Under the pieces are notes generated by a model. That model saw only the letters and a program-made list of their open reading frames with translations, was not told the DNA's origin and ran no database searches. Of a stretch of DNA of 20,528 bases, positions 1 through 18,211 are shown one piece after another. The stretch comes from a virus: positions 1-20,528 of IMG/VR virus record IMGVR_UViG_3300020056_000209, one strand, 5' to 3'. The translations under genes were made by a program, and so were the position numbers. Within the stretch, counting starts at the first letter, position 1, and every line of letters begins with the position of its first letter.

Positions 1-3000
1 TACGATGTAGAGAAACAGTTTTATCGAGTTATGTTCAAGCCCGGCTATGCCATTCAGGCAAGAGAGCTTACGCAATTACAAACAATGCTCCAAGGCCAGG
101 TAGAAGCTTTCGGAGATAATGTATTTAAAGAAGGTTCAGTTGTAAAAGGATGTAACTTTACAGAACTTGATGACCTTCAATTCGTTAAAGTTAACGATGG
201 CCCGTCCGGATTTAATGTAACATCTTATATTAGTGGTCCTGCTGTAGAAACACTTCAGGGTCAAGAAGTTGAACTCGATTATGTTTATGAACTTGTTGGT
301 CAATCAACAGGATTGAGAGCAGAAATTGTTCAAGCATCAACAGGTTTCCAAACAAGACCACCAGATTTAAACACATTCTATATTAACTATTTAAATACAA
401 CATCAGCGGCAACTCAATTCCAAGCTGGTGAAAACCTTGTAATTAACAGACACAAATACTTAAGAGGTACAACTCAAGAAACTCTTACATCTGAACCAGT
501 CATAACTCAAGGACTTGCTGTAAGTGCAGGTATTAGTACTCCTCATGTAGGTAAGTCTTTTGGTATCGAAGCTGCTCCTGGTATTATATTCCAAAAAGGT
601 CATTTTATCTTTGTTGCCGAACAGAGACTTATTGTTGAGAAATACAGCAATTCGCCTAACGATAAATCTGTAGGTTATTTAGTATCTGAATCACTTATTA
701 ATGCTTTACAAGATTCAAGCCTATACGACAATGCAAACGGTTCTAAAAATGAAAACGCACCGGGTGCTGATAGATTAAAACTTGTACCTACGCTCACAGT
801 TAAAGATACATCAACTGCAGCTGCAGATTCTGACTTCTTTACATTAGTTCGTTATCAAAACGGTAATGCAATTACTGTTCGCGACGTTTCACAATATAAC
901 GTATTAGGTGATGAACTTGCTCGAAGAACATACGAAGAGTCAGGTAATTATATTTTAGAACAATTCCCATTAAGTACTGATGACCGTATTCCTGAAGGTC
1001 AATCTAATACAGAGGTCCAAGTTATTGTAGGACCTGGTACTGCTTATGTCAAAGGTTATAGAATAGAAAATTCTGGAGATCGTGCATTTACAATTGACCA
1101 AATCGCAACGACTGAAGAAATTACAAACCAAAATGTTTCTATGGAATATGGTAATTATCTTGAAGTTGAAGATACGGCAGGTTGGAACGGAAAATTAGAT
1201 ATTGGTCTTGGTTCTGCAGCAAATCCTCAAACATCTTCAAACCAAGATATGGGTGATGTATATGTTCAGAATTTAACAAAGAATAGAATTTATTTACATA
1301 GCGGTTCTTATAGTGGTGTATATAATTTATCAGACTTAGATAGATTCAGCGACGGTAATGGTTATGTTCAAGTAAAACAAACTGGTGCTGCTCCTTTATT
1401 AAGAGAAACAAATAAAAAGGCATTAGTTTTTGATACAGGTGTAAATGGATTATTTGGAACAAACAATACGCTGATTCCTGTAAGAGCTTATGTTCCTGCT
1501 ACACATTCCAACGGAACAATTACTTTAACGGCAAACCCAGGTGAAGATTTTAATTGTTCACAAGATGACATATTAGTTGTTGATAGTTCTTCAGTACAAC
1601 ATGATGCTACAACATCAACTGCATTAAATAATTCACAGCTGAATATTCAAATTTCTAATACAGCTGCCACGAATGTGTCAGTTTATTATAACAAGAGATT
1701 AATTGGTTCAACCGACGGTGTTGACCCATATAATAAAGTTGTAAGATCACCTTATATTAAATTTGCATATAATAATGCGCAATCCAAATACAGTTTAGGA
1801 TTCCCTGATGTATTTGACATTATTAGTATTGTGGATTCTTCAGGCGAAGATTATTCAAACAGCTTTAGATTAAGAACAAATCAAAAAGATACTTATTACG
1901 ATATTTCATATTTAGAATATATTGAAGGCAGACCTCAACCGTCAGGAACAATGACAGTTCAGTTAAAAGTGTTTCAAGTCAATACATCTACAGGTGAACA
2001 CTTCTTCTCAATTAACAGCTATCCTAATTCATTAGAAGCTTGGGAGATTCCTTCTTATGTATCTGGGTCAGGAACAGTTTATAATTTAAGAGATTGTTTT
2101 GATTTCAGAGCACATGTGAATAAAGATGCTTCGGCTGATTATAATAATACAAGTGCAGGTTCTGCTCCTACAATTTCTACGCAAGTTGGAACATATGCTT
2201 TATCGTTTAGCAATGTAGGACAACCGTTAACTCCTGCTGCACAGCAATCTTTACAAACAGATTTAGAATATTACTTAACAAGAATTGATACTATTGCTTG
2301 TGATTCTTACGGAAACATCAGCCTAATCAAGGGTGAAGAAAACAGAAACGCGGTTCCACCAAGAATAGGAACAGACAAGTTAGCAATTGCTAACGTTGAG
2401 ATTCCATCATATCCTGCACTATCCAAGAAGCAAGCTGAAGTTCTCCGTAAAGGAGATTACGCAATCAGACCAAGAGCAACTGGTATTAAAGCTTATACAA
2501 TGAAAGATATGCACAATCTTGAGAAGAAGATTGATAACATGGCATATTATATTTCATTGAACCAATTAGAATCTGAAACTTCAAACTTGGTTATCAGAGA
2601 TGAAAACGGTTTAAACAGATTTAAGAATGGATTTATTGTTGACCCATTCAACGATTTAACTTTATCTGAAATTAGTCATCCACAATTTAACGCATCAGTT
2701 CCATTTAATCAAAAGATTTTAACTCCATCGTTAAAAACATTTGCTTTGGATTTGATTTACGATTCTTCAACAGGTTCTTCTGTGTTCCCAAGTACCGATA
2801 ATGGTAAAGCGGCAACAATTGGAAGAAACTCGAGTGTTGATATTATCGAGCAGCCTTATGCTTCTAACTTTAGAAATTGTGTTTCTAATTTTTACAAGTA
2901 TGTAGGTGATGGAATTATTTCTCCACCTTACGATGCTGCTTATGATACAACAGTTAACCCTGCATCTATTGATATTGACTTAACTGAACCTTTCCAAGAG

Positions 3001-5388
3001 TTCGTTGATAGTATTCAAGAGTTCATTCCGATGACTGATACTTCAACAACGACAATGTTTGAAAGAGACCCAGGTCGAAGAGGAAGAAGAGGAGCAGGTA
3101 CACAGACACAAACAATCACAACAAGAACAAGTGAAATTACAATTGACGGTAGCACAACAACCGAAAACTTTGTTGGTGAATTTGTATCTGACTTTAGATT
3201 CCAACCATTTATGGCATCAAGGGATATTAAAATCTATATGTCAGGTTTAAGACCTAATCAAAGACATTACTTCTTCTTTGATGGTATTTCTGTTGATGCT
3301 CATGTATTACCAGGTTCAATTACAGCGGATTCAATTGATGAAGTTGAAAGATTTGGCGAAAAGGGTGATGCAGTTGAAACCGATGCAAACGGTGTATTAA
3401 GAGCGGTCTTCCATTTACCTGCCGAAACATTCTATGTAGGTGATAGGGTATTAGAAATTGCTGACGTAAATCAATATTCAAGTATTGATAGTGGAGCAAC
3501 ATCAAAAGGATTCGTTACTTACCGTGCATACAACTTCAGTGTTGAAAAGACAAGTTTAACAACATCTACAAGGTCACCGAACTTTGATGTGAATACGACA
3601 ACAACAATTAGAAATGTTGCTCGACGTATTCGAGGTAGAGATCCTCTTGCACAAACATTCTTTATTAAGAAAGGTATGGGTCAAGGTTCAAACTCTGTTT
3701 ACTTATCAGAAGTTGATGTATACTTTAAACGTAAGCCTGATGGAACGATAGGTGGTGCAAACGCTAATGCTGCACTCAACGGTATCACACTTCAGATTCG
3801 TGAAGTATTAAATGGATATCCTACAAACCAAATTCTACCATTCTCTGCGGTTCATAAATTACCAGCAGGAGTAAGTGTATCTGAAGATGCTTCAGTCGCA
3901 ACAACATTTGAATTTGAAGCACCTGTTAGATTGGACGTTGAAAAAGAATACGCAATTGTTCTTCAGCCTGATGCATCAGATCCAAATTATTTAGTATATA
4001 CATCTAAGGTTGGTGGTACTGATTTAACACCAGGTGATACTCAAGGTGCTGCTATCGTTCAGGATTGGGGAGACGGTGTATTATTTACTTCAACTAATAA
4101 CAGTGCATGGTCGTCATATCAGGATGAAGACGTTAAGTTTACAATCAGAAGACACAACTTCAATTCTTCAACAGGTACTGTAAGATTAACAAACAACAAA
4201 AACGAATTCTTGTCAGTTACGGATATCACAGGAAGGTTTACACCGGGTGAAAAGATTTATCAAGCAAAAGGTTCTTCAGGAACAGTTGGTGTCACAAACA
4301 ATAGTAAGACATTAACAGGTACTGCATTATCAAGTGTATATGCTGAAGGCGACTTCATGATGATTGAAGGTGGTAATCCAGTTGTGAAAGGATTATATAA
4401 AGTAGTCACAATTGTTAATGCTGATACATTAACTCTTGATAGACCTTGGCCAATTACAACAGGTTCAGCAAATGCAACTCCTGTAGTTGTTGGTGATTTA
4501 TGTCATTACGATTTAAGAAATCCATTTGAAATGCATTTAGAAAATTCATCGGTTAGTTCTTCTAAAGTATTTACTGTAAGCGATCCTTTAGATGCAACCA
4601 CTAAAATTCTTGGAATAGATAGTGGTAATTCTGCTGATATAGCATCAATTGATAATATCAATTTAAGTTATGTTCAGCCTATGATTATGAAAGCTGCTGA
4701 TGATGTTTCTAAGACAACATTATCAGGTACATTCGTTCCACCTGATGATGTAAATATAACATATGATATGCCAATGGCTTTCAATGATAATAATCACTTT
4801 AGTACAGACGGTGTTATTATTTACAGTATGTCTAACGATCCTTCAAGAACAAAAGTATTTAAAGTAAATGTTGGACTTGAGAATGGCAGCAACGTCACAT
4901 CAACTCCATTTGTTGATATTGAAGCATCTAAATTAATTGCATATCAATATAAGATTACGAATAGTGCTGATACAACAGCAAAGTATATCAGTAAGACTAT
5001 TGAGTTAGCTGAAGATCTTGATGCTGAAGATTTCAATTTAATTCTTTCTGCTTATCGTCCAAAAGGAACAGATATTAAAGTTTATATCAAAGCTCAGAAC
5101 GGATATGACAATGATGAGTTTGATAATTTAGCTTGGACTGAATTAGAATTATTTGAAGGAGTAGGTTCATTCTCAACGGCGACACAATTACAAGATTATA
5201 GAGAATTTAAATATAGAATCAATGCTTCAAATAAGGTAAGTCAATTACCTTCTGAACCATTTACATATACATCACAAGCTGGTGTATTCCAAGGATTTAA
5301 GAGATTCCAAATTCGTATAGATATGTTATCTCCAAATATCCATAATGCACCAACACTTAAGGACTATCGTGGTATTGCACTTACGTAG
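1..5388 (+). CDS. DUF4815-like large virion structural protein, 5' partial
   Basis: The reading frame is open from the first base of the window, giving 1795 codons before the TAG at 5386. The ATG at 31 is unlikely to be the start: it has no ribosome binding site, and the ten codons before it (YDVEKQFYRV) run straight into FKPGYAIQARELTQLQ, the motif that normally lies some way inside DUF4815-type proteins of T4-like marine phages. From the first codon, the DUF4815-like part covers roughly residues 1-900. An Arg/Gly-rich linker (GRRGRRGAG) lies at residues 1022-1033. A C-terminal half, rich in predicted beta structure, carries DPLAQTFFI near residue 1214, a common motif in phage baseplate and tail proteins, then a jelly-roll-like stretch ending in IRRHNF near 1387. 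No membrane segment or catalytic motif is apparent. Family resemblance and neighbours suggest a baseplate or proximal tail-fibre component. Its exact place in the virion is inference. Confidence 0.85.
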   Translation, partial: YDVEKQFYRVMFKPGYAIQARELTQLQTMLQGQVEAFGDNVFKEGSVVKGCNFTELDDLQFVKVNDGPSGFNVTSYISGPAVETLQGQEVELDYVYELVGQSTGLRAEIVQASTGFQTRPPDLNTFYINYLNTTSAATQFQAGENLVINRHKYLRGTTQETLTSEPVITQGLAVSAGISTPHVGKSFGIEAAPGIIFQKGHFIFVAEQRLIVEKYSNSPNDKSVGYLVSESLINALQDSSLYDNANGSKNENAPGADRLKLVPTLTVKDTSTAAADSDFFTLVRYQNGNAITVRDVSQYNVLGDELARRTYEESGNYILEQFPLSTDDRIPEGQSNTEVQVIVGPGTAYVKGYRIENSGDRAFTIDQIATTEEITNQNVSMEYGNYLEVEDTAGWNGKLDIGLGSAANPQTSSNQDMGDVYVQNLTKNRIYLHSGSYSGVYNLSDLDRFSDGNGYVQVKQTGAAPLLRETNKKALVFDTGVNGLFGTNNTLIPVRAYVPATHSNGTITLTANPGEDFNCSQDDILVVDSSSVQHDATTSTALNNSQLNIQISNTAATNVSVYYNKRLIGSTDGVDPYNKVVRSPYIKFAYNNAQSKYSLGFPDVFDIISIVDSSGEDYSNSFRLRTNQKDTYYDISYLEYIEGRPQPSGTMTVQLKVFQVNTSTGEHFFSINSYPNSLEAWEIPSYVSGSGTVYNLRDCFDFRAHVNKDASADYNNTSAGSAPTISTQVGTYALSFSNVGQPLTPAAQQSLQTDLEYYLTRIDTIACDSYGNISLIKGEENRNAVPPRIGTDKLAIANVEIPSYPALSKKQAEVLRKGDYAIRPRATGIKAYTMKDMHNLEKKIDNMAYYISLNQLESETSNLVIRDENGLNRFKNGFIVDPFNDLTLSEISHPQFNASVPFNQKILTPSLKTFALDLIYDSSTGSSVFPSTDNGKAATIGRNSSVDIIEQPYASNFRNCVSNFYKYVGDGIISPPYDAAYDTTVNPASIDIDLTEPFQEFVDSIQEFIPMTDTSTTTMFERDPGRRGRRGAGTQTQTITTRTSEITIDGSTTTENFVGEFVSDFRFQPFMASRDIKIYMSGLRPNQRHYFFFDGISVDAHVLPGSITADSIDEVERFGEKGDAVETDANGVLRAVFHLPAETFYVGDRVLEIADVNQYSSIDSGATSKGFVTYRAYNFSVEKTSLTTSTRSPNFDVNTTTTIRNVARRIRGRDPLAQTFFIKKGMGQGSNSVYLSEVDVYFKRKPDGTIGGANANAALNGITLQIREVLNGYPTNQILPFSAVHKLPAGVSVSEDASVATTFEFEAPVRLDVEKEYAIVLQPDASDPNYLVYTSKVGGTDLTPGDTQGAAIVQDWGDGVLFTSTNNSAWSSYQDEDVKFTIRRHNFNSSTGTVRLTNNKNEFLSVTDITGRFTPGEKIYQAKGSSGTVGVTNNSKTLTGTALSSVYAEGDFMMIEGGNPVVKGLYKVVTIVNADTLTLDRPWPITTGSANATPVVVGDLCHYDLRNPFEMHLENSSVSSSKVFTVSDPLDATTKILGIDSGNSADIASIDNINLSYVQPMIMKAADDVSKTTLSGTFVPPDDVNITYDMPMAFNDNNHFSTDGVIIYSMSNDPSRTKVFKVNVGLENGSNVTSTPFVDIEASKLIAYQYKITNSADTTAKYISKTIELAEDLDAEDFNLILSAYRPKGTDIKVYIKAQNGYDNDEFDNLAWTELELFEGVGSFSTATQLQDYREFKYRINASNKVSQLPSEPFTYTSQAGVFQGFKRFQIRIDMLSPNIHNAPTLKDYRGIALT

Positions 5389-5583: not shown

Positions 5584-6828
5584 ATGGCTCGTAATATAGG
5601 AACAATTAATACATCACAAACCTTTCAGAATTGGTTTGATAAAACGAATGATCTCGTTGAAGAATTGCGAGACAACATTATCACGGCTTCTTCAAGTGGA
5701 GATTCCACAACAGGTGATGCAACTTTAATTGGAGATTTTACATCAACCAATTTAATCGCAAGTACATTACTTTCATCTAACGAGATTGCTGCGGTAGGAA
5801 GTTTAATTAATTTCCAAGATCCTATACAAATTACAGGTACTTCTGCTACAACAGCAACATTCCTATATGCAGGAACAGGTGGTCAAACAAGATACACTGA
5901 TGGTAATTTATCTTGGGATGTTGGATTAGAAAGTTCTAACCCAGGCAATTTTATTATTGATACTGGAGCAGGTCAAACTAAATTAGAATTATCAGTCGCA
6001 GGTACATTAACGGTACCTAATCTTATTGTGACAGATGTTATTTCTGCGAATACAATTTCATTAGGCGGTGGCGGTTCAGGTTTAAACTCTGATGATATTG
6101 ATGAAGGTACGCAGAATTTATATTTTACTGATGCAAGAGCAATCGGAGCATTCACTGGCGGTGACGGTATTAATATCGCAACTGATGGAACAATTTCATT
6201 TGACGGTGAAGGTAAATTAACCACTTATGAAGGTGATGAATTTAGAATAGCAGGTTCAATGGGTGCTGCTGGTATCAAAGCTTATATAGATGGAGCATAC
6301 TTAAGCGGTGTTGGATTTGGAAGATTAAGATGTGATTGGTCAGGTAATACTTATGATGTATTAACTTGGCTCCCATCAGGTATTGATGTAAATGGTTATG
6401 GTCGTTTTGAAGATGACGTAAGAATTGATAACGGCGATCTTGTTGTAAGAAATAGCTCTAACGATATTACGGCATTCATAGACAATAGCGGTAATGGTTA
6501 TTTTACAGGTGATGTGACAACAAACGGAAACGCATCGGACGAAAGATTAAAGGAAAATATTGTTCCTCTTGAAAAAGGATTAGGAACAGTAGAACAAATT
6601 AAAACGTATACATTTAACTATAAAGATAGACCTGAGGATACATTACCTGGTGTAATTGCTCAGGAGATTGAACAAATTTTACCGGAAGTGGTTTATGATA
6701 TTGAAATGGAGGATGATACTTACAAGGCAGTAAGATATCAACAAATAGTGCCAATACTTGTTAATGCGATAAAAGAATTAAGTGATAAGGTAAAAGATTT
6801 AGAAAACCGTCTTGAAAAGGACAGTTAA
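5584..6828 (+). CDS. Tail fibre protein with C-terminal S74 intramolecular chaperone
   Basis: The 414-residue protein has three parts. Residues 1-50 (MARNIGTINTSQTFQNWFDK onward) form a helical head typical of marine myovirus fibre proteins, likely the attachment end. Residues about 50-315 are low-complexity Ser/Thr/Gly/Asn beta repeats, including the fibre motif DEGTQNLYFTDARA near residues 172-185. The last 97 residues are an S74 (endosialidase-type) intramolecular chaperone starting at SDERLKENI and ending in a heptad helix (VNAIKELSDKVKDLENRLEK). In this family the chaperone trimerises the fibre, then cuts itself off using a Ser-Lys pair; here these would be Ser318 and Lys323. The start ATG follows GGAAG, about 9 bases upstream, and one base separates it from the previous stop. 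Receptor binding by the shaft or tip is inferred from the family. Confidence 0.88.
   Translation: MARNIGTINTSQTFQNWFDKTNDLVEELRDNIITASSSGDSTTGDATLIGDFTSTNLIASTLLSSNEIAAVGSLINFQDPIQITGTSATTATFLYAGTGGQTRYTDGNLSWDVGLESSNPGNFIIDTGAGQTKLELSVAGTLTVPNLIVTDVISANTISLGGGGSGLNSDDIDEGTQNLYFTDARAIGAFTGGDGINIATDGTISFDGEGKLTTYEGDEFRIAGSMGAAGIKAYIDGAYLSGVGFGRLRCDWSGNTYDVLTWLPSGIDVNGYGRFEDDVRIDNGDLVVRNSSNDITAFIDNSGNGYFTGDVTTNGNASDERLKENIVPLEKGLGTVEQIKTYTFNYKDRPEDTLPGVIAQEIEQILPEVVYDIEMEDDTYKAVRYQQIVPILVNAIKELSDKVKDLENRLEKDS
6535..6828 (+). other. S74 self-cleaving chaperone domain of the tail fibre
   Basis: The segment encodes Ser318 to the C-terminus. It shows the family signature SDERLKENI, the later block PGVIAQEIEQILPEVV, the VRYQQIVPILVNAIKEL block and a terminal coiled coil. 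The Ser-x4-Lys spacing equals that of the catalytic pair described for endosialidase chaperone domains. The mature fibre would therefore end at about residue 317. Confidence 0.85.
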
Positions 6829-6879: not shown

Positions 6880-9800
6880 ATGGCAAAGATTTCAGAACTA
6901 GGTTCCATTACCGGTGCAAATACCAGGTCGGAAGACCTGTTCGTCATTGTTAACCTTGTCCAAGGTGACGACGGTACAAAGAACATTACTAGGAAAGAAC
7001 TTGTTGAAGCAATTCAGTACGAGATCTTTTCTAGAATTACTATCACTGGGGGAACAATCTCCGGTGTGGTCATGTCTGACTCACGATTAAATAACGTTGA
7101 GATTGATAATTCCGAAATCGAAGATACTGAATTTGTTCGTGGTTCAATTGACGACACAGTCATAACAAACAGTACTGCTAACAATATCACAATGACATAT
7201 AGTAGTTTCCAATTTGGAACACTGCTTGATTCTTCTGCTAACAATTTAACAATTACTTCATCTGACTTTTCACAAGGCACAGGTAATAATAACGTCTTTG
7301 AAAATACAACTTTATTAGACGGAAGTGCTAATAATTTTGTCATTACCGATTCTTCAGTAAACAACGCAGTCATTACAGATTCAACTGCTAATAATATTAT
7401 TATTACGAATTCTGAGTTTAACGACGGCACGGGTAATAATGTTGTTCTATCTAATTCTACAATTGATAATTCTACATTCAGAGATGGTACTGTAAATAAT
7501 TCGGTCATCGAGCAATCTGATTTCAATAACGGTGAGTTAGCAGATTCAATAGGTACAAACATTCAGCTTGACAATTCTTCATTTGCTGAAGGTACTATTA
7601 CAGATTCAACAATGTCTGATTCTGTCATTCTTGACAGTACAGCAAATAATATGGCAATCACCTCTTCTACTTTCACAAGTGGTGATATCTTTGACAGCAA
7701 CGCAAATAATGTAATCATTACAAATTCCGAATTTAATGATGGCACAGGTAATAATGTCACATTAACTAATTCAACAATTGATGATTCATTAATTTCAGAT
7801 AGTGAAATTTCTAATACCTCTTTCACAGGTACAATGGCAAATGTTGTTGCTCAAAACTTACAAATTACAAGTTCATCTGCTGACGGATTATCTTCAAACA
7901 ATTCAACATTTGATAATGGCGAACTTTCTCAATCAACATTCTCAGGCGGAGTAATTAATCAATCCAAGCTTGTTGATTTTGATATGGAACTCAATAATGA
8001 ATTTGAGCCTCCAATGGATGATGAAAGTTATTTCGCAATTCGTAACGAAAAGACAGGTGATACTGAACAGATTAACTTCGGTCAATTATTCGACGAAATA
8101 TCTAAGAAAACCTCTCAAGCATTAAAGGTTCACGTTGATGCAGGTTCAGGTGACGATAGTTTCCCTGGTACTCAAATGCAACCTGTTAGAACCTTAGAGA
8201 AAGCTTTTGAACTTTGTTTAGAAAAAGCAGGTGGCGAACTTAATCGTAACGCAATTAATAACTCCGTTCACATTTCGGTTGGACCAGGAACATATTATAC
8301 AAAAGGTAATCTGCAGTTACCTGATGATTGTTCCTGTACTTCAACCTCAGGTCAGTATGCAACAGTCATTGAATTAGAAAAAGGATACGAAAATAATAAC
8401 GGTATTCTTGTAGGTTCTGGTTGTTATGTCCAAGGATTTGCATATCAGAATTTCCAAGTTGATAACTTTGATTTCCCAGAAGGCGGATTCGCGATTGCTT
8501 ATCGTCCTGGTGCCAAATTATTACGTTCTCCATACTTAAGAGATAGTTCACAGTTATCAAACTTCTTAAGACAAGATGTTGAACCACCTCTTAACCCTTA
8601 TAACAGCAAAGGTACGCTGGCTGACCTTGGTAGAGAATTTACTTTAAGTAATATTTCTGACCCAACAAAATTTGCTCTTGATGATGAAATTGAATTCTCA
8701 TCTGGTGCAATCGGATTTGTATCTTATGTTTCTGAGATTGCTTCTGATAGCAAGATTCACGTAAGGAACTTAAAAAACAATCAAGGGTTTGCTGTAGGAG
8801 ATACAATAGTTTCTGAATCTGGTGGTACTGCTGTAATACAATCAATCGGTATTGACGATTTCCCAAACAGGGAAGTTGGTCGAGGCGGTGGTTGTGTACT
8901 TGCAGATAGAAGAGTACTTGATACTGATTCATTATATACCTACGTACTTTGTTTTGGTTTCACACCTCGTTCACAAAACGGTATAGGATATGTGGCAAGA
9001 GACGGTGCTGGTGTTAACGGTATTGGTTCTCTGTCAATCTTCGTTCGTTGCGCGTTCTATGCTCTGAACGGTGGTCAAATGACATTGAACAACTCAGGTA
9101 CACAGTTCGGTGATATCTCTATGAGGGCAAAAGGAACAACTCAGTTCTTTGCTCCAAAATCAACAAGTGCAACAATTATTGGTAATACAGCATTTGCTGA
9201 TACGATTGATGACAATGCAGATGCAATTATTGATGACGTTGTAGATTACTTAACATCTAATACAGCAAACGGTGGATTAGGTTATAAAGAATACGATTCA
9301 GACAAATGTTTAAGAGATGCAGGTATTGTTCTTGACGGTACTGCATACGATGTTGCTCTTGATACAAACTATTGGGGTAGATTAGGTGGTATTACTTATA
9401 GGTCTCCAATCAGTTATGTTGTTCCAGGCGAACAGCTTGAAGAAACAAAAGGTGCATTAGAATACTTAAGAGATAGAACAAAAGAAATATTCATCTCAGG
9501 TAGTTCAGCAATTAACGAAAGAGTTGAAAAGTCGTTTAGTGAACTTTTAAATGTCCTTGAATACGGCGAAGAAAATATAAACCCAATTGTATGGTCCGAG
9601 ACATCGGTACCTCGAGTGGCTTCTAGAAGGTTATTACAAGACAACTCTGAGTTCATTAAAGATGAATTAATTGACTGGATTGAAAACAATAACGAATTCT
9701 ATGCTTACGATAGTGCAGCTTGTCGACGTGATGTTCAAGATTACATTTTACCTGCTGTCACTAACGATATGTTATACGAAACAAATTATAATGCTGTCAC

Positions 9801-12800
9801 TGCAGGTCGTGCATATTATATGGCAACAGCAAAAACTGTTATGGAAAATCAGAACAATGAAACAGTTGCTGCTTACCGTAGATTAAAGGACCAAACAAAC
9901 GAATTAATTGACGGCGATTCATATCTTGCTTCTCAAAGGCTTGATGATGGATTCGACGAAATTCTACAAATCCTTGAAAATAAAGGAACACAGTTTACAC
10001 CTACTGCCGCTACTTATGACCCATCTACTGGTTTATCAGTTATCACACTCGGCAGCGGCCACGGTTTAACAAAAGGAAGAAAGGTTCTTCTGAAAACTGG
10101 CGGCCTCATATTTACATGCGATAGAGATAATAATACAACAAGACATGCATATCCTCGAGCTTCTGACCCAGCTGCAGGTACTCCAATCGAAGTTATCGGT
10201 TCAACTGATACAAAGATTGTGATTAATGTCGGTAAGTCTGATTTAATTGATAATCATACTTTTGTAGAATCTTTAACAAATGCTGTTTCTATATTAGGTT
10301 CAGAAATTACATGGAGCGATTCTTCAAGTATTCCTGCTGATAAGAGAAGCGCAAGAAAACAATTACAAGCAAATAGAGAATTCTTACAAGAATTAGTATT
10401 AGGATATATTGACGATACATACTTCAGATATAATTCTGATAAGTGTCAGAGAGATATTAAATCTTATATCCTACCTGCGGTTGAAAGAGACATCTTAACA
10501 GGTTCAAACTATAATGCAATTCAAACAGGTATTGCTTATCGTTCAGGTACTGCTCTTGCTGACAATGTAATTAATGAACAGTTAGTAGAAACAACTGGAG
10601 CAATTAATAACTTAAAAGATAGAGTTAAAATAAATGGTGGTCAATCAGGATTCACTGTAAGTACTGCTTCTTATGACCCAGCAACTGGAGTATTTACTGC
10701 CACTGTTGGTGCAGGACACGGACTTGTGATTGGTGATTTTGTTAACTTTGCTGATGAAGGTATTACATTCAGTTGTGATATGGGAAGCGGCCAACAAAAT
10801 CATACTTCACCTCAAGCACACCATCCTTATTACAGAAAACCTTGTCCTATCACAGGTGTAACAGATACAACTATTACAATGAATGTAGGAACAGGTGGTA
10901 CAGGTCAAGCTGCTCATACATTTGTATCAGCGGTCGCAAATGCAATTTATCCTTCAATGTTGAGAGGATTAGATTATACTCCAACCGATGCATCTTACGA
11001 TCCTACAACAGGAAGGTTTGAAGCAACTATCGGTCAACACGATTTACATCCTGGAGATTATGTAAAATTCCTTGAAGATGGAATTACATTCAGTTGCGAT
11101 ACAGGAAGCGGACCTACAAACGATGCAGTTCCAAATCCAGGACATCCTTTCTACAATCATCCTTGTCCTGTTCATTCAGTGACAGCAACAACTATTGTAT
11201 GTTATGTAGGAACAGGCGGTACTAACGATCATACATTTGTATCTGCGTTAGCAAATGCAATTACTCACGTTGTCGGAATTACTGATAAGGCATCAGAACA
11301 TCGTTCAGATGAAGCATTTGATAAAATTGTTGGAATACTCAATAGTTCAAATAAAACTTATTCAACATCAACTGCTTCTTATGACCCAGTCACAGGATTG
11401 TCAGTATTAGATATTGGCAGCCACGATTTACAACCAGGTGATGAAATTATTATTGCTCCTGAGAGTTTAACATTTACTTGTGCAACTGATGGTAATGCAA
11501 CACAACATTCATACCCAACAACTACAATTACTCAGTTTACGCCAACTGCTGCTACTTACGACCCAGCAACTGGAGTATTCAGTGCAACAATAGGTTCACA
11601 TAAATTACAAGTTGGTGATCTTATTGAAATTGCTCCTGAGTCAGTTACATTTACTTGTGACTTAGACGGTAATGTCACAGAACATTCTTATCCTGAACCA
11701 CATCATCCGTTCTATAAGAAAAAGATTGCATTAACTGCTGTCACAGCAACAACGATTACTTGTAATGTAGGTGCTGCGATAAATGGCGGTGGAGCTCATA
11801 CATTTGTATCTGCTCTAACAGGTTCTATTGAAGGTGAAAGACAACATCCTGCATATAAGAAGCCTGTCGTAGTTGCTGCTACAACAAACACAACGATTAC
11901 TTTAAATGTAGGTACATCAACTGATACATCAGTACATACATATGTATCTTCAACAGCTAACAATATTAAATCTGCTAAGTATATTTCAACATATACTCCA
12001 TACAACGCAACCTATGATTCTGCGACTGGAGAGTTTGTTGCTACAATCGGATTACACAATCTTGAAGCAGGCGATTATGTAATGATTAAACCTGAGTCAG
12101 TAATCTTTACTTGCGACTTAGATGGAAACCTTACAGAACATGCTGCTCCACAGGCTCACCATCCTGCATATAAGACACCTGTTAAATTAACCGAGGTGAC
12201 AACCGATACAATTACAATGAACATCGGACCAGGTCCTGGTGGTGCCCATACATTTGTTAGAGCGGATGTAGGTGCAATTGATTCTGATGCGTTAGTATTT
12301 ACTGACCCTGCATCTCATGTTCAACATTATACACCAACAACCTCTACATACGATCCTGTCACAGGAATCAGTGTTGTCACAATCCCAGGACATAATTTAA
12401 CAACTGAAGATTATATTGAGTTTGCTCCATATTCATTTACATTTACTTGTTCGTTAGACAGTAATGCAACTGAACATCATTACCCAAGAAAAGGTGATGG
12501 TAATTACAGAATGCCGATGGCAATCACAAATGTTGCTGGAGATGATATTACAGTTAACGTAGGAACAGGTTCTGGAGGAACTCATACATTTGTATCTGTT
12601 GAAAAGGATGCTGTATCTAAAGTTACTTACAATTCTCAAGGTCAATACGCAAGAGAACAATTACAAATTAATAAAGACTTCTTGGCTAAGGAAGTATCTC
12701 ATTACCTAGAAACAAATTACTTTGTATTTGATGGTGAGAAATGTTCAAGAGACACAGGTTATATTCTTGATGCGGTAAGACGAGATGTTGCTACAGGTTC

Positions 12801-15800
12801 TAATTATCATTCTGTATTTACAGGATTAGGATATCGTATTGGAACAGTCGGAGCTCGAACTGTTGTTGAAGACCAACTTACAGAAACAGTTGCTTCAATC
12901 AATTATATGAAAGATACCGTTCTTGCTGATGCAATTGTTGCCGCTGATGCAACAGCAGTATCAAGAGTCACAGTTGCATTTGATGAAATTATTGATATAA
13001 TGCAAAACGGTTCAGGCAATGCAAATCCATTAGGATACGGTACTGCTGCTGAGGTTAGTGCATTACATACAATAGGTTCAAATGCTTTAATCAATAACAG
13101 AGCATTCTTACAGGCTGAAGTCACAGCATATATTGCTCAAGAGTTCCCAACATTAACTTACGATATTGCTAAATGTGAAAGAGATACAGGTTATCTTGTA
13201 GATGCAATCGTATGGGATGTAAGATTCGGTTCAAACGCAGCCGCAGTTAATTTCGCAAGATTGTATTATGAAAATGCAATCAGTGTATTACCTGAAGACC
13301 AAAAATTACCTACAGCAAAAACTTGGGAACATTTGGCAAATGTTGCTTATAACATCGCAAGAAATGTTGCTGTCACACCAACAACAGGAAATGCACAAAC
13401 TCAAAATACATCTTTATCTGATGCAGGAGTTGAAGTAGGTGAAGCGGTAAGAGCAGGAATCAATGTCACAACTCAAATTATTAGAGATGACAATTTAAGT
13501 TCACTACCTACTCTGAATGAAGGTAATGTTGAAACTGCACTTGTTGGTTCAGTAAATGCAATTGATGGAATAACAGAAAATCTACAAGAATCAGTAATTG
13601 ATTACTTGAAAGACGAACATAACGGATTACCGTTCAAGAAAGAAGTTTGTGAAAGAGATGTTGGTATTATCATCGATGCAGTATCAAGAGATATTGAATA
13701 CGGCGGTAATGAAAATACAGTTGAAGTATTTGAGTATTACTTCAAGAGATTCAATACAACATCGGCTGATTACGAACAACTACGTTCAACCAATGTTCTT
13801 CCAATTGAAGTCAAAGGTCAATTTAAAACATTATCCGATTACGAAGATACAGCAAATGTTTCAGGTTTAAGAGAATCAATTAATGTTCTTCCTTATAATC
13901 AACGCATTCCTACAAAGCAAGCATTTACTTTACTTGCTGATAAGGCTGCTGAGGTTGTGACAGAGCTTGGTGCAGGTAGTTCTTCATTCACTCAATACAG
14001 CCCAACAAACGCAAGCTACAATCCTGCTACTGGAGTATTTACCGCTGAAATCGGTGCTCATAGTTTAGGAGTTGGTGATAAGATTTGGTTAAAGCCTAAC
14101 GGAATTACATTTAGTTGTGATATGGGTGGCGGTCCTGCGAATCATACTTCGCCTCAACCACATCATCCTTATTATAACAAGCCTGTCACATTGACTGCTG
14201 TCGGTGCAACTTCAATTACAATGAATGTAGGAACAGGTGGTTCAGGTCAACAAGTTCATACATTTGTTTCTGCTGACGCAAACTCAATTAGTGAAGGTCC
14301 ATATCAAAATACAGATGGAACTGCTGCAAGCACAGCAACAGGAACTGCAGTACATAATTTAATTGATACAATTGCTCAGTTAGTTGATAAGGTTAATATT
14401 GAAGATGATGAAATGCCTGTAATTACAAAGGCAAGCTTTGACCCTAACAGAACATTAGCAAGAAAACAATTACAACGTAACAGAGACTTTATCATCGAAG
14501 AAGTTCAAGGATATCTGAAAGATCGTTATTATGTCTTTGACGGTGATAAGTGTAAGAGAGATATCGGTTTATTAATTGATGCAGTTGGTGTTGATATATT
14601 AACAGGTTCTAATTACAACGCAGTGTTTAACGGTCTTGCATACAGAATCGGAACGGTTGGTGCTGATGCTGTAATTAACGAACAGTTAACAGAAACAGTT
14701 TCAGCAATTAAATACGCAAGAGATCTTTGTGTAGCTGCCGTTACTGACTCTGCTATGAAAACAAGAACAACTGATTCATTCAATGAAATCATTGATATCA
14801 TGACAAATGGCAGTGCTGCTGCAGATACAATCGACTTTACTAATACGGCGCCAAACTTCAACAGGTTAAGTGCAAGGTCTCAACTACAAAATAACAAAGC
14901 ATTCTTACAGGCTGAGATTACAGCTTGGCTTGCTGCGAACAGGCCAAGTCATACATACGATGTTGCTAAATGTGAAAGAGACTTAGGATACTTAATTGAT
15001 GCAGTATCACATGATATCCAGTTCGGCGGAAACTTTGCTACAATCAACGATGCAAAACTGTATTTTGAAAATGCAGTATCAGTATTACCTGAAGACCAAC
15101 GCGAACCAACCGCAGCTGCTTTCTACCATATCGGTGATTGTGCTGAGTTAATTGCTTTAGATACAGATATCGGTGGATTGAAATCAGTAGGTAATGCTTT
15201 AACTCAAGACTTTACTTCAGGAAACGCAGGTGCATCGGCCGCTGCTGCAGTGGAAGGTTTATTTGATATTGTTGCTTCTTCAATTGAGAACAATACATTA
15301 CTTATGAATCCGCCTCATGAAAAACCTGATGCAACATTATTCAATGCTGTGAACGCAGGTGCTCAAGGTGAAATTGAAAATGTTAAGTCAACTGTTCAAG
15401 GTGGAGTACTCAATCATCTATCAACATACTTTGAAGTACTTCCATACAGTGAAGCAAAATGTCGAAGAGATACAGGTTATATTGTAGATGCTGTTGCACA
15501 CGATATTCAATACGGTGGAAACTCAGCAACAGTTCAAACTGCAGGAATGTATTTTGAAAATGCAATTAACACTGGATTACAAATCGAACAAAGAATGGGA
15601 ACAAGAGATGCATTCTTACACATGGCAAAAATTATAGAACATGTTGTAGGTGCTAAACCAATTACAACAACTTTATTCCCAAGAACGAAGAAATACTACA
15701 CAGGTGATATTTTAACACAATACGAATATTGGAATGGAATTCATTCTTATCAATCAATCGAAGAACAGGATGTAGCAGTACATGGTGCAAACCCTGATAC

Positions 15801-17769
15801 TTCAATCGCAGCAAGACGACTTGTTGAAATTGTTGCTAACGCAGTTGACGATAAGGTTGAAGTTAGAAATACTATTCCTGATAGAATTGATATTGAGCAA
15901 ACTTGGATGGGTGCTAACTATATTGCTTCTAAAGAATTGGTTGAAAGACAATCAGATGTATATGCAAACGGTGTAATTAGTTATCTAACAACTGCACATA
16001 ACGGATTAAGTTTCGCAGATGCAAAATGTCGAAGAGATATTGGATTCTTAATTGATGCAGTATCGCATGACATTCAACATGATACTAATTTTGCTTCAAG
16101 ACAGGCAGCAGGTATTTACTTCGAGAATGGATTATCAGTACTTCCTGCAGATACAAGAAAACAAACTGCTTCAATATACAACTTCCTTGGCGATGCAATG
16201 GAACAAGTTGTTCAAGAAGCACCTGTCACAAACGCAAGTAGTTATACATTAACTCCTCAAGACTTCTCAGGAGTTGCTGCGACAGCAACTGAAGGTGCAA
16301 GAGTTCACGAATTGATTGGATACGTTGAAGATGTAATTCACGAAAATGATGTTGATGAATTACCTGCTATTGAGAAAACAGCAACTTGGATGGCAGCTGA
16401 ATTATCAACTGCTGCTATTACAATTGATGACAATTCTGAAGAACTTGCTTCTGATGTGACTCAACATATTAACAGCAACTTTAATGTACTTGATTACAAT
16501 AAAGCAAAATGCAGAAGAGATACTCAATACTTACTTGATGCATTCAGCTTCGACTTGAACTACGGTGGTAATACTGCTTCAAGATGGAATGCTGATTTCT
16601 ACTTCTGGAATCAAATTTACAGATTGCCTGAGGATCAGAGAATACCTACTGCGAAATCATATCGTCAATTAGGTAGAATTTGTAAGGATATCGTATTAGG
16701 TGAATACCCAGGACAATTAACATTAGGTGAAATTGGAACTGATATTGAAAGTAAGAAAGTTGAATCACTTGCTAATATCTTCTATAACACTCAATTGTAT
16801 AATGATACCAAGTACTTACCTGTTAAGGAAGAACCTGATTACACATACAGTCAATCAGCGTTTACTGATGCATTAAATGTAATTGAACAAAGGAAAGAAG
16901 GTTTACAAGAAGATACTGTAAGATTCGTTAATGCTACTTACGACTTCATTGATATTAACTTAACAAGACGTGATGCAAGAAACTTATTAACCGCAGTTAT
17001 GAATGACTTCAAATATGAAGATCTTCAAGTACCTGTTCCAAGTTATACAACAAACGGAAATCAGAATGCGGTTAGAACATTTACTTCAACGTTCTTTGAT
17101 TACGACGGAACTCATGTGTTCCCAGTATTCAATCCTGCTAACCCAGCGCTGAAACTGAAATATAAAGGTTCACTAAATGATGTTGCTGACCTAGCAACGT
17201 TAACAGGAATGAAACCAAACTGGGCATATATTGTTGCGACTGATTATGCGACAAGCTTCTATGCTGGAGATATATATTATTGGAATGGAACACAATTCAT
17301 CAACGCAGGTGCAAACAATACTGACTTGTTAGATGCGTTCACTGGCTCATGGGATAGAATGAGAGATTATCTTGTAAACAATCTATCACCTGATACTGAC
17401 CACTCAGCAATGATTGAAGGATTATTTAATGATTGCTTGAAGGACAATGTACTGAGACCTAACACATTGGTATTCGGATCATTGGTTGAATCCATTGCTC
17501 ACCAGTTTAACGGTGCATCAGCAGGTGTTAACAGAAATGCTCTACCTCTGAACTTCAGAAACTTAGGTGCTGCTATTTCAGCGGTTGCTTCGGTACTGAA
17601 TGAGGATGGTGGTAGAATTCGTTGGTCAGGAGCTGATGAATTGAATAACCAGTACTTCGCAAGAGGTCTGAGAATTAACGGTAGAACAGGTCGAATTGAA
17701 GGTCGACCATTTACATCTTCTGTAAGAAAACTCGCAAGAAGAGCTTCAAACAGTAGAGCAGTAATATAA
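6880..17769 (+). CDS. Giant modular virion protein (3629 aa): beta-helix, helical CxRD repeats, beta cassettes
   Basis: This is an uninterrupted 10.9-kb gene. The head (residues 1-50, MAKISELGSITGANTRSEDL) resembles N-termini of other marine myovirus fibre and baseplate proteins and is probably an anchor. Residues about 51-367 form a degenerate beta-solenoid. Residues about 417-761 form a pectate-lyase-like parallel beta-helix (HVDAGSGDDSFPGT, SVGPGTYY, then NGIGYVARDGAGVNGIG). Residues about 800-3387 hold twelve helical CxRD modules (family B) interleaved with beta-rich Cys/His modules (family A). The end (about 3522-3629: ESIAHQFNGASAGVNRNALP, DELNNQYFARGLRINGRTGR) is a compact block I recall as conserved in giant proteins of T4-like cyanophages. 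There is no signal peptide, transmembrane segment or obvious enzyme active site; the beta-helix could be a glycan-binding or degrading spike, but I see no catalytic triad. It is transcribed late from its own promoter. A long tail fibre or baseplate appendage is the best guess. Confidence 0.88.
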   Translation: MAKISELGSITGANTRSEDLFVIVNLVQGDDGTKNITRKELVEAIQYEIFSRITITGGTISGVVMSDSRLNNVEIDNSEIEDTEFVRGSIDDTVITNSTANNITMTYSSFQFGTLLDSSANNLTITSSDFSQGTGNNNVFENTTLLDGSANNFVITDSSVNNAVITDSTANNIIITNSEFNDGTGNNVVLSNSTIDNSTFRDGTVNNSVIEQSDFNNGELADSIGTNIQLDNSSFAEGTITDSTMSDSVILDSTANNMAITSSTFTSGDIFDSNANNVIITNSEFNDGTGNNVTLTNSTIDDSLISDSEISNTSFTGTMANVVAQNLQITSSSADGLSSNNSTFDNGELSQSTFSGGVINQSKLVDFDMELNNEFEPPMDDESYFAIRNEKTGDTEQINFGQLFDEISKKTSQALKVHVDAGSGDDSFPGTQMQPVRTLEKAFELCLEKAGGELNRNAINNSVHISVGPGTYYTKGNLQLPDDCSCTSTSGQYATVIELEKGYENNNGILVGSGCYVQGFAYQNFQVDNFDFPEGGFAIAYRPGAKLLRSPYLRDSSQLSNFLRQDVEPPLNPYNSKGTLADLGREFTLSNISDPTKFALDDEIEFSSGAIGFVSYVSEIASDSKIHVRNLKNNQGFAVGDTIVSESGGTAVIQSIGIDDFPNREVGRGGGCVLADRRVLDTDSLYTYVLCFGFTPRSQNGIGYVARDGAGVNGIGSLSIFVRCAFYALNGGQMTLNNSGTQFGDISMRAKGTTQFFAPKSTSATIIGNTAFADTIDDNADAIIDDVVDYLTSNTANGGLGYKEYDSDKCLRDAGIVLDGTAYDVALDTNYWGRLGGITYRSPISYVVPGEQLEETKGALEYLRDRTKEIFISGSSAINERVEKSFSELLNVLEYGEENINPIVWSETSVPRVASRRLLQDNSEFIKDELIDWIENNNEFYAYDSAACRRDVQDYILPAVTNDMLYETNYNAVTAGRAYYMATAKTVMENQNNETVAAYRRLKDQTNELIDGDSYLASQRLDDGFDEILQILENKGTQFTPTAATYDPSTGLSVITLGSGHGLTKGRKVLLKTGGLIFTCDRDNNTTRHAYPRASDPAAGTPIEVIGSTDTKIVINVGKSDLIDNHTFVESLTNAVSILGSEITWSDSSSIPADKRSARKQLQANREFLQELVLGYIDDTYFRYNSDKCQRDIKSYILPAVERDILTGSNYNAIQTGIAYRSGTALADNVINEQLVETTGAINNLKDRVKINGGQSGFTVSTASYDPATGVFTATVGAGHGLVIGDFVNFADEGITFSCDMGSGQQNHTSPQAHHPYYRKPCPITGVTDTTITMNVGTGGTGQAAHTFVSAVANAIYPSMLRGLDYTPTDASYDPTTGRFEATIGQHDLHPGDYVKFLEDGITFSCDTGSGPTNDAVPNPGHPFYNHPCPVHSVTATTIVCYVGTGGTNDHTFVSALANAITHVVGITDKASEHRSDEAFDKIVGILNSSNKTYSTSTASYDPVTGLSVLDIGSHDLQPGDEIIIAPESLTFTCATDGNATQHSYPTTTITQFTPTAATYDPATGVFSATIGSHKLQVGDLIEIAPESVTFTCDLDGNVTEHSYPEPHHPFYKKKIALTAVTATTITCNVGAAINGGGAHTFVSALTGSIEGERQHPAYKKPVVVAATTNTTITLNVGTSTDTSVHTYVSSTANNIKSAKYISTYTPYNATYDSATGEFVATIGLHNLEAGDYVMIKPESVIFTCDLDGNLTEHAAPQAHHPAYKTPVKLTEVTTDTITMNIGPGPGGAHTFVRADVGAIDSDALVFTDPASHVQHYTPTTSTYDPVTGISVVTIPGHNLTTEDYIEFAPYSFTFTCSLDSNATEHHYPRKGDGNYRMPMAITNVAGDDITVNVGTGSGGTHTFVSVEKDAVSKVTYNSQGQYAREQLQINKDFLAKEVSHYLETNYFVFDGEKCSRDTGYILDAVRRDVATGSNYHSVFTGLGYRIGTVGARTVVEDQLTETVASINYMKDTVLADAIVAADATAVSRVTVAFDEIIDIMQNGSGNANPLGYGTAAEVSALHTIGSNALINNRAFLQAEVTAYIAQEFPTLTYDIAKCERDTGYLVDAIVWDVRFGSNAAAVNFARLYYENAISVLPEDQKLPTAKTWEHLANVAYNIARNVAVTPTTGNAQTQNTSLSDAGVEVGEAVRAGINVTTQIIRDDNLSSLPTLNEGNVETALVGSVNAIDGITENLQESVIDYLKDEHNGLPFKKEVCERDVGIIIDAVSRDIEYGGNENTVEVFEYYFKRFNTTSADYEQLRSTNVLPIEVKGQFKTLSDYEDTANVSGLRESINVLPYNQRIPTKQAFTLLADKAAEVVTELGAGSSSFTQYSPTNASYNPATGVFTAEIGAHSLGVGDKIWLKPNGITFSCDMGGGPANHTSPQPHHPYYNKPVTLTAVGATSITMNVGTGGSGQQVHTFVSADANSISEGPYQNTDGTAASTATGTAVHNLIDTIAQLVDKVNIEDDEMPVITKASFDPNRTLARKQLQRNRDFIIEEVQGYLKDRYYVFDGDKCKRDIGLLIDAVGVDILTGSNYNAVFNGLAYRIGTVGADAVINEQLTETVSAIKYARDLCVAAVTDSAMKTRTTDSFNEIIDIMTNGSAAADTIDFTNTAPNFNRLSARSQLQNNKAFLQAEITAWLAANRPSHTYDVAKCERDLGYLIDAVSHDIQFGGNFATINDAKLYFENAVSVLPEDQREPTAAAFYHIGDCAELIALDTDIGGLKSVGNALTQDFTSGNAGASAAAAVEGLFDIVASSIENNTLLMNPPHEKPDATLFNAVNAGAQGEIENVKSTVQGGVLNHLSTYFEVLPYSEAKCRRDTGYIVDAVAHDIQYGGNSATVQTAGMYFENAINTGLQIEQRMGTRDAFLHMAKIIEHVVGAKPITTTLFPRTKKYYTGDILTQYEYWNGIHSYQSIEEQDVAVHGANPDTSIAARRLVEIVANAVDDKVEVRNTIPDRIDIEQTWMGANYIASKELVERQSDVYANGVISYLTTAHNGLSFADAKCRRDIGFLIDAVSHDIQHDTNFASRQAAGIYFENGLSVLPADTRKQTASIYNFLGDAMEQVVQEAPVTNASSYTLTPQDFSGVAATATEGARVHELIGYVEDVIHENDVDELPAIEKTATWMAAELSTAAITIDDNSEELASDVTQHINSNFNVLDYNKAKCRRDTQYLLDAFSFDLNYGGNTASRWNADFYFWNQIYRLPEDQRIPTAKSYRQLGRICKDIVLGEYPGQLTLGEIGTDIESKKVESLANIFYNTQLYNDTKYLPVKEEPDYTYSQSAFTDALNVIEQRKEGLQEDTVRFVNATYDFIDINLTRRDARNLLTAVMNDFKYEDLQVPVPSYTTNGNQNAVRTFTSTFFDYDGTHVFPVFNPANPALKLKYKGSLNDVADLATLTGMKPNWAYIVATDYATSFYAGDIYYWNGTQFINAGANNTDLLDAFTGSWDRMRDYLVNNLSPDTDHSAMIEGLFNDCLKDNVLRPNTLVFGSLVESIAHQFNGASAGVNRNALPLNFRNLGAAISAVASVLNEDGGRIRWSGADELNNQYFARGLRINGRTGRIEGRPFTSSVRKLARRASNSRAVI
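7030..7980 (+). repeat. Asn-ladder beta-solenoid repeats in the giant protein
   Basis: Residues about 51-367 repeat short units such as STANNITMTYSSF, ANNLTITSSDF and GNNVVLSNSTID, with regularly placed Asn-Asn and alternating hydrophobic residues. This is what a right-handed beta-solenoid with stacked asparagines looks like. It resembles pentapeptide-repeat solenoids but does not follow their A(D/N)LxX rule. The role is probably a stiff shaft segment next to the anchoring head. Confidence 0.7.
8128..9162 (+). other. Parallel beta-helix domain of the giant protein
   Basis: Residues about 417-761 begin with VDAGSGDDSFPGT followed by a PVRTLEKAFELC helix, the usual entry to pectate-lyase-like phage beta-helices (Asp/Gly-rich cap, then a helix that shields the end). 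Later coils include SVGPGTYY, GSGCYVQGF, GYVARDGAGVNGIGSLSIF and LNNSGTQFGDISM. The coil turns are rich in Gly and Asn. Such domains often bind or cut host surface polysaccharide, but no catalytic set can be recognised here. Confidence 0.7.
9991..10290 (+). repeat. Family A beta cassette, copy A1
   Basis: It runs from TQFTPTAATYDPSTGLS to HTFVESLTNAVS (about 100 residues). It carries the FTCDRDNNTTRHAYP core but lacks the HHPxY block found in other copies. It lies between B copies 2 and 3, in the loop between an ILQILENKG helix and an ARKQLQANREFLQ helix. Confidence 0.75.
10648..11268 (+). repeat. Family A beta cassettes, tandem copies A2 and A3
   Basis: A2 is 10648-10950 and A3 is 10969-11268. 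Both belong to the subtype with FSCDMGSG or FSCDTGSG in place of FTCDLDGN. A2 has NHTSPQAHHPYYRKP. A3 has NDAVPNPGHPFYNHP, so the first His of the usual pattern is Asp in A3. Both contain a second Cys in the KPCP or HPCP turn. They follow the LKDRV helix of B copy 3. Confidence 0.75.
11353..11979 (+). repeat. Family A nested cassette: half copy A4, full copy A5, half copy A6
   Basis: A4 (11353-11529) has the first half of the module and stops after QHSYP. A5 (11530-11838) is complete, from TQFTPTAATYDPATGVF to ALTGSIEGE. A6 (11839-11979) supplies only the second half, from HPAYKKPVVV to HTYVSSTANNI. A4 plus A6 make one complete module, so A5 appears to be inserted in the loop just before the HHPxY block. 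Confidence 0.75.
11980..12621 (+). repeat. Family A beta cassettes, copies A7 and A8
   Basis: A7 is 11980-12282 and A8 is 12319-12621. Both have the FTC(D/S)LD(G/S)N core followed by TEHxxP. A7 keeps QAHHPAYKTPV; A8 has KGDGNYRMPM there. After A8 the helical scaffold resumes with QYAREQLQINKDFL. Confidence 0.75.
13990..14298 (+). repeat. Family A beta cassette, copy A9
   Basis: It runs from TQYSPTNASYNPATGVF to VHTFVSADANSISEG. It belongs to the FSCDMGGG subtype and keeps NHTSPQPHHPYYNKP. It lies after the LLADKAAEVVTELG helix of B copy 6, a different loop from that used by A1. Confidence 0.75.
17443..17766 (+). other. Conserved C-terminal block of the giant protein
   Basis: The last 108 residues follow the repeats without resembling them. 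They contain SLVESIAHQFNGASAGVNR, EDGGRIRWSGADELNNQYFA and GRIEGRPFTSSVRKLARR. I recall this block as conserved at the ends of other large marine myovirus virion proteins. It probably docks or trimerises the protein and ends in a strongly basic tail. Confidence 0.65.
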
Positions 17770-17785
17770 AATAGGATAAAGAAAA

Positions 17786-18211
17786 ATGCCAATTACAACT
17801 ATACAAACATCGCAGGCACCTGATGCAAAACCGGTAGCGGTCAATAAGGTTGTCTCTACAAACTGGCAAGTTCTTGCGGATGTTCCTAATTATGAAGTTC
17901 CTGAATTAGTTTTCGGTGGTTCAACAACAGTTGAGCCTGGTGTAGGTGAAATTATTTCGCCATTAATTTTATGTAATACAACGAACAGTACTGTTCTTGT
18001 TGACGTAAGAATGCACAGAGAAGATTTAAATGCAGAATTTTATGTATTAAGACAACTGCCAGTGCCAGGTTATCAAACAATCCCGATTCCACTGAACGGC
18101 CAATTTTTAAAGAGTGGTGATACGTTAGAGATTTTAGCGGATACTGATTTAGCAGTTCACGCAACATTATCTTTCACTCAAGGTCAGTCAGAGGAAGACG
18201 ATGTTGTTTAA
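17786..18211 (+). CDS. Small virion protein (141 aa), predicted beta-sandwich
   Basis: The gene starts 16 bases after the giant gene, with AGGA at 17773-17776 as a reasonable ribosome binding site. The protein (MPITTIQTSQAPDAKPVAVN onward) alternates short hydrophobic strands and turns (ISPLILCNTTNSTVLVDVRM, LKSGDTLEILADTDLAVHAT) and ends in an acidic tail (EEDDVV). This pattern fits a small Ig-like beta-sandwich. I recall similar proteins of this size next to fibre genes in T4-like marine phages, annotated only as structural. No catalytic or membrane feature is seen. It may be a fibre collar or decoration protein, which is inference from position. Confidence 0.8.
   Translation: MPITTIQTSQAPDAKPVAVNKVVSTNWQVLADVPNYEVPELVFGGSTTVEPGVGEIISPLILCNTTNSTVLVDVRMHREDLNAEFYVLRQLPVPGYQTIPIPLNGQFLKSGDTLEILADTDLAVHATLSFTQGQSEEDDVV

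Follow-up and report, generated by a model that had tools for sequence, protein, structure and literature searches.

Immunoglobulin (Ig)-like domains decorate the structural proteins of tailed phages and are dispensable beta domains on virion proteins. Recursive self-insertion of a small beta domain is known from a different setting, the HABAS domains in Si3 of the cyanobacterial RNA polymerase beta' subunit, where as many as six levels are known (PMC11515920, PMC13114784). Among marine T4-like phages, giant virion proteins mostly bear no label beyond structural, tail fibre or hypothetical. In this study, we analysed a stretch of viral DNA of 20,528 nucleotides (IMG/VR record IMGVR_UViG_3300020056_000209; the whole stretch is called the window). 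It encodes such a giant protein of 3629 amino acids (aa) in an open reading frame (ORF) on the + strand at 6880-17769, which matches the virion structural and tail protein families PHROG 701/5342/4527. The protein carries a helical scaffold module (B) and a beta module of about 100 aa (A), and we found that A is inserted into A at four loops of its own fold. Our overall explanation, to which we give a probability of about 0.74, is that this virion giant has a phycobiliprotein-like array as its backbone and beta barrels nested in the G-H loops and linkers of the array and in one another, the barrels probably making contacts with surfaces.

The nest in the window is at aa 1494-1696. The outer A module there consists of an N-terminal part at aa 1494-1548 (11359-11523, profile positions 1-55) and a C-terminal part at aa 1654-1696 (11839-11967, profile positions 55-96), which together score 97 bits. 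A complete A module at aa 1553-1650 (11536-11829, 129 bits) interrupts it at profile position 55. A search of viral contigs yielded 78 loci encoding relatives of the giant, and L-numbers are the labels of these and related loci. In L051 and L053, the inner module is missing and the same outer module is unbroken. In L009 and L042, an outer module that is whole in the window (9994-10287) is split at profile position 20-22 by a nested A module. L056 and its kin have a three-deep nest in gap 5 (gap n is the stretch between B copies n and n+1) with splits at positions 84 and 72, and L071 and L084 are un-nested there. Complete A modules thus lie inside loops of other A modules, with un-nested homologues at the same place, which is self-nesting of the HABAS type. 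HABAS domains and A are alike in that a small beta domain is inserted in copies of itself; however, the fold and the protein are different, and the HABAS insertions are described as ancient and as following the bacterial tree, whereas the presence of A varies among related phages.

Excision of the complete modules followed by a rescan restored the outer modules with 32-109 bits. By this procedure, the nest depth is five in P-RSM6, at aa 6352-6879, four in Sf-CH1b and three in S-RIM32, S-SSM4 and P-SSM2; the window has one nest, and depth 3 is reached in L056. At each of the 28 junctions, the two parts of the interrupted module are contiguous in profile coordinates, and the junctions are limited to four profile sites, 20-26, 53-57, 69-73 and 80-85. 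Predicted loops contain 27 of the 28, which by itself is modest evidence, as 65% of all positions are in loops. This profile-coordinate test was substituted for token-shuffle and junction null models, which, when applied to single proteins, were weak or badly posed, and from which no significance was drawn. In AlphaFold2 models, the two parts of a split module have the same pattern of strands as an unbroken one.

The scaffold of the giant consists of twelve B copies, whose cores were located with the B profile: B1 (Cys 810, 9184-9438), B2 (Cys 948, 9610-9864), B3 (Cys 1189, 10336-10590), B4 (Cys 1955, 12631-12885), B5 (Cys 2099, 13069-13323), B6 (Cys 2257, 13543-13797), B7 (Cys 2558, 14440-14694), B8 (Cys 2698, 14860-15114), B9 (Cys 2861, 15352-15606), B10 (Cys 3050, 15913-16167) and B11 (Cys 3211, 16396-16650). 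They are followed by a degenerate copy, B12 (16858-17016), with TRRD in place of the Cys motif (RRD at about aa 3362). Successive cysteines are 138, 241, 766, 144, 158, 301, 140, 163, 189 and 161 residues apart. The preliminary description of this DNA had read 138-189 residues for spacings without A and 241, 766 and 301 across A, and a recount on the ORF reproduced these values exactly.

Profile searches confined the A modules of the window giant to these three long gaps. The linker between B2 and B3 holds the module at 9994-10287 (106 bits). The 766-residue gap contains seven A pieces, that is, six modules, one of them interrupted by a whole A module: two in the B3 G-H loop at 10651-10947 (120 bits; missing in L046, L038 and L053) and 10975-11262 (118 bits; missing in L038 and L053), the nested pair described above, and two in the B3-B4 linker at 11992-12279 (124 bits) and, as the last of that linker, 12328-12615 (115 bits). 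The module at 13996-14289 (124 bits) lies in the B6 G-H loop. The sites were read from alignments; an assignment to G-H loop or linker by distance was unreliable for longer repeats and was dropped. The preliminary description had placed A in at least three loops. A is indeed found in three gaps, but the alignments and models show two kinds of site, the G-H loop between the last two B helices and the linker between B domains, and gap 3 has A at both. In models of window aa 901-2018 (mean predicted local distance difference test score (pLDDT) 69, predicted template modelling (TM) score (pTM) 0.45) and of L056 aa 1869-2520 (pLDDT 78), B is predicted to have about six helices and A about nine strands, as separate domains. 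The predicted structures therefore speak against A and B forming one inseparable domain.

Relatives were scanned with A and B profiles made from the copies in the window. All twelve B copies are found in 45 homologous proteins, and the copies, sometimes eleven, are collinear. Among the 45 proteins, gaps 1, 4, 7, 8 and 11 never contain A, gap 2 always does, gap 3 contains three to seven A pieces, and gaps 5, 6, 9 and 10 vary. Because the same slots recur in all these homologues, the slot pattern is not due to chance. Each A module lengthens a gap by about 100-108 residues, and A-free gaps stay at 136-202. Empty-site alignments, in which the loop is seen without the insert, were obtained for gaps 2, 3, 5, 6, 9 and 10. 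Gap 6 is empty in L036, L038 and L042 (an A-free loop is AHTPTTGNSLTQDT), and the first loop of gap 3 has zero, one or two A modules depending on the relative. The G-H loops of B5, B9 and B10, which are A-free in the window, are filled in L056, together with L071 and L073 for B5 and L071 for B9. The idea that A is a portable cassette holds, since A is present or absent at defined sites with clean empty-site counterparts on a scaffold of constant order. A is therefore neither always fixed in place nor inseparable from B. The view of A as displayed would correspond to barrels projecting from the backbone.

A tree of 125 A modules was built from 98 columns, and this small number of columns limits its resolution. 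The modules cluster by slot, with 13 label changes versus 60.9 in shuffles; thus, most A modules were inherited in place and movement is rare. One clade, starred in the tree (98/99), unites A modules of gaps 6 and 10, those of the G-H loop in gap 3 and the nested one in gap 2. This clade shows one sub-lineage of A that, judged from the tree, has spread to new sites, largely the polymorphic ones.

In structure comparison, the best folds for A were the FCCH domain of E1 (Z 8.6) and the endosialidase barrels of phi92 and K1F, where about 75-82 residues aligned at a Z of about 8, a value in the range of common arrangements. Profile matches to PF12195 (17.9 bits, E 0.003) and PF16190 (E1_FCCH; 12.6 bits, E 0.15) are below the cut-offs of 35 and 29.5, respectively. 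Therefore, A as modelled resembles the endosialidase beta-barrel or E1 FCCH fold and is not a filed member of either family. The endosialidase barrel, too, belongs to a larger tail protein, whereas A is multi-copy and self-nesting, and no catalytic domain is seen in the giant. Like the Ig-like decorations, A modules are beta domains on a virion protein; however, they belong to another sequence family and lie inside helical domains and each other, not only appended. Whole-model Foldseek matches to fibronectin and cytokine receptors (TM score <0.2, root-mean-square deviation (rmsd) >17 Å) were rejected as mere strings of beta domains. Among 327 unique A modules (for example, 11536-11829 of the window), there is no variation in the Cys, the Pro and the His of HTF, and a further His is conserved in 97%. 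These residues are possibly a metal or fold-stabilising site.

The B scaffold probably descended from, or shares ancestry with, the globin-like fold of phycobiliproteins, without their X and Y helices. Sixteen of the 83 B repeats without A match PF00502 (best E 1e-4), and no other family matches more than three. In related giants, Pfam's cut-off for this family is passed in S-PM2p218 (38.8 bits, E 1.1e-9), S-WAM2 (26.6 bits) and G006 (24.9 bits), one of these matches spanning profile positions 33-150. All PF00502 matches in 20 phage records fall in giant frames of 2880-8573 aa. In an hhalign comparison, B aligned collinearly with 22 phycobiliproteins fetched from genomes (P 5.6e-7), and its C, R and D fell on C84, R86 and D87; the score was 37.3, versus a maximum of 24.3 in column shuffles. 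B thus has the bilin-attachment motif Cys84-x-Arg86-Asp87. In 569 unique B hits, C is conserved in 93%, R in 98% and D in 99%; among the cases listed, the B copy without Cys in homologous loci is the terminal one. A profile search of PDB returned phycocyanin alpha chains for most matches and as the only repeated family, with the Cys on Cys84 and weak E-values of 0.11-0.92. A PDB profile match to iota-carbonic anhydrase (E 0.007) covers only 43 residues and was rejected as too short. With VIA-align, the helices of B in the L056 model aligned with phycobiliproteins at Z 13.5 and rmsd 2.0 Å over 131 residues (allophycocyanin, Z 12.4); the aligned range extends past the A cluster to the next helix, with which the fold is complete, so that the predicted model is globin-like. 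The likeness thus consists of the predicted helical fold, the C-x-R-D at the bilin-attachment position and the collinear profile alignment, whereas phage B domains stand in a tandem array with barrels in their G-H loops, begin at about phycobiliprotein residue 29 (without the X/Y helical hairpin) and lack the PGGNAY loop, the bilin-contacting loop being shortened.

Taken together, these results show a backbone in the form of a tandem array of about twelve phycobiliprotein-like domains, with barrels of about 100 residues, similar to the endosialidase or FCCH type, in its G-H loops, its linkers and four loops of other barrels. The ends of a barrel are near each other, which is likely the reason why an insertion would leave the host domain undisturbed. 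Barrels may accumulate through duplication and in-frame insertion. Several observations weigh against parts of this explanation. Some A slots are invariant, since gap 2 and the gap 3 linker hold A in all complete homologues seen. The window model is only moderate (see the pLDDT and pTM above), so it does not settle the relative orientation of the domains, and VIA-align of this model returned no phycobiliprotein row, perhaps because its B copies are of low confidence. It was the L056 model that gave the Z of 13.5, and, according to a warning of VIA-align, unrelated helical models can reach a Z of about 13-14. The best PF00502 match in the window, at 9190-9357 in B1 (17.5 bits, E 4.1e-5), is under the cut-off of 22.2 bits. 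Block shuffles that keep the motif average 27 with a maximum of 37.5, compared with the observed 37.3; the CxRD helix carries much of the score.

These points bear on the alternative that the scaffold is a helical repeat of other origin, brought by convergence to Cys-x-Arg-Asp and a globin-like arrangement, for which the missing X/Y helices and PGGNAY loop, the Z reached by unrelated helical models and the share of the motif helix in the profile score all speak. Convergence is nevertheless unlikely in view of the three phage giants above the Pfam cut-off, one across profile 33-150, the absence of any second family from more than three of the 83 repeats, and the recurrence of phycocyanin alpha chains alone in PDB, always with Cys on Cys84, despite their weak E-values. 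For the A pieces, it could be argued that they are degenerate tandem repeats arising from unequal recombination, and that partial duplications and deletions give the appearance of nesting with no discontinuous barrels. Un-nested tandem arrays do occur, such as the 11 modules of L079, and in the shuffle-type null P-RSM6 alone is clearly below chance. Such repeats would not be expected to yield halves that meet to the residue at every junction and at four loop sites only, outer modules that are whole at the same place in un-nested homologues (L053 in gap 3, the window in gap 2, L071 and L084 in gap 5) and parts that keep the unsplit strand pattern in models. We therefore regard this alternative as highly improbable.

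As for function, the barrels may let the virion make variable, possibly sugar-binding, contacts with the surface of its host. The barrel of K1F endosialidase binds sialic acid, and it is through the loops of this barrel that hosts are discriminated (PMC12632334). In the giants 088 and 218 of S-PM2, which contain B domains, mutations were selected early when the phage was co-cultured with Synechococcus WH7803 (PMC9910659). Together with the virion and tail families that the giant matches, these two facts make surface contact the best inference for A. It is also quite possible, if less likely, that the giant is purely structural and that its barrels thicken or lengthen a part of the baseplate or fibre with no host recognition. 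Relatives in P-SSM2, P-HM2 and S-WAM1 are labelled gp7 or baseplate wedge, the giants of P-RSM6 and S-MbCM6 follow gp6, and some A slots are invariant; however, a surface role agrees better with the fact that relatives have gained and lost barrels and with the co-culture mutations in the related giants S-PM2d088 and S-PM2d218 (PMC9910659). Another proposal is that the tail protein is a biliprotein, which would carry a tetrapyrrole on the invariant B cysteine and be the missing acceptor for phage bilin enzymes such as CpeT. A gene for a CpeT-like lyase lies shortly upstream of a giant with phycobiliprotein-like domains in S-WAM2, Sf-CH1b, ACG-2014e and S-PM2 (L087, L098, L099 and L126), and among 20 phage records CpeT is found in eight and bilin reductase in four. 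Bilin binding by B domains, though possible, is not favoured because CpeS is absent from all 20 records and the bilin-contacting loop is shortened; the full biliprotein proposal appears quite improbable. Neither CpeT nor bilin reductase was found in ten contigs of the window's relatives, which are fragmentary, so this speaks neither for nor against a link between B domains and phage bilin genes.

The closest family members of the window giant are the giants of cyanophages (S-PM2p088, S-PM2p218, P-SSM2 gp7 and PHROG 701/5342), which have the same A and/or B. They differ in having fewer or no A modules or deeper nests: S-PM2p088 has five B domains and S-PM2p218 four, with A detected in neither, whereas P-RSM6 has 22 A matches. 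A alone turns up in 325 records of cyanophages or marine phages, and the genes that carry it are labelled as structural, tail or baseplate proteins. A literature search of partial coverage found no description of phycobiliprotein-like arrays in phage structural proteins. Recursive self-insertion was already known from HABAS. With these modules, the giants would gain a readable grammar, a backbone of the phycobiliprotein family with self-nesting barrels. They offer a second case of recursive domain nesting after Si3, and, as it is polymorphic among relatives, its insertion process is open to study. They also raise the question of what an invariant bilin-attachment motif does in the tail proteins of phages, some of which have bilin genes of their own. 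S-WAM2 (KU686211, L087) has several giants with PF00502-like domains, in frames of 4781, 3226 and 3446 aa. In the S-PM2 record (AJ630128), sixteen tRNAs are annotated inside S-PM2p218 (L126 8929-20268); they look like an annotation error because ARAGORN finds none and the frame is open.

Most likely, the giant is part of the virion of a phage of the T4 superfamily, encoded in a tail fibre/baseplate gene region. Its N-terminal region, aa 57-219 (7048-7536), has pentapeptide repeats (PF13599, phrog_15350). The giants of P-SSM2, P-RSM6, S-MbCM6, S-SSM4 and S-SCSM2R lie directly after gp6, the position of T4 gp7, whereas in the window the genes before the giant are of the DUF4815 and S74 fibre types and not gp6. 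As to the host, psbA and psbD were not found in contigs of the relatives of the window phage, and the major capsid protein of one relative is about equidistant to those of Sinorhizobium phiM12-type, methylotroph and cyanobacterial phages. The DUF4815/VrlC-type gene (1-5388) has its nearest full-length relatives in the Sinorhizobium phages phiM7, phiM12 and phiN3 (33%), cyanophages not being the nearest, and the tail fibre gene (5584-6828) ends in an S74 chaperone domain at the C-terminus. Downstream of the giant, an ORF of 141 aa (17786-18211), without a match in PHROG and Pfam scans, separates it from a collagen-like tail fibre gene (18262-20526), which has long GIQG-type repeats and extends past the end of the window.

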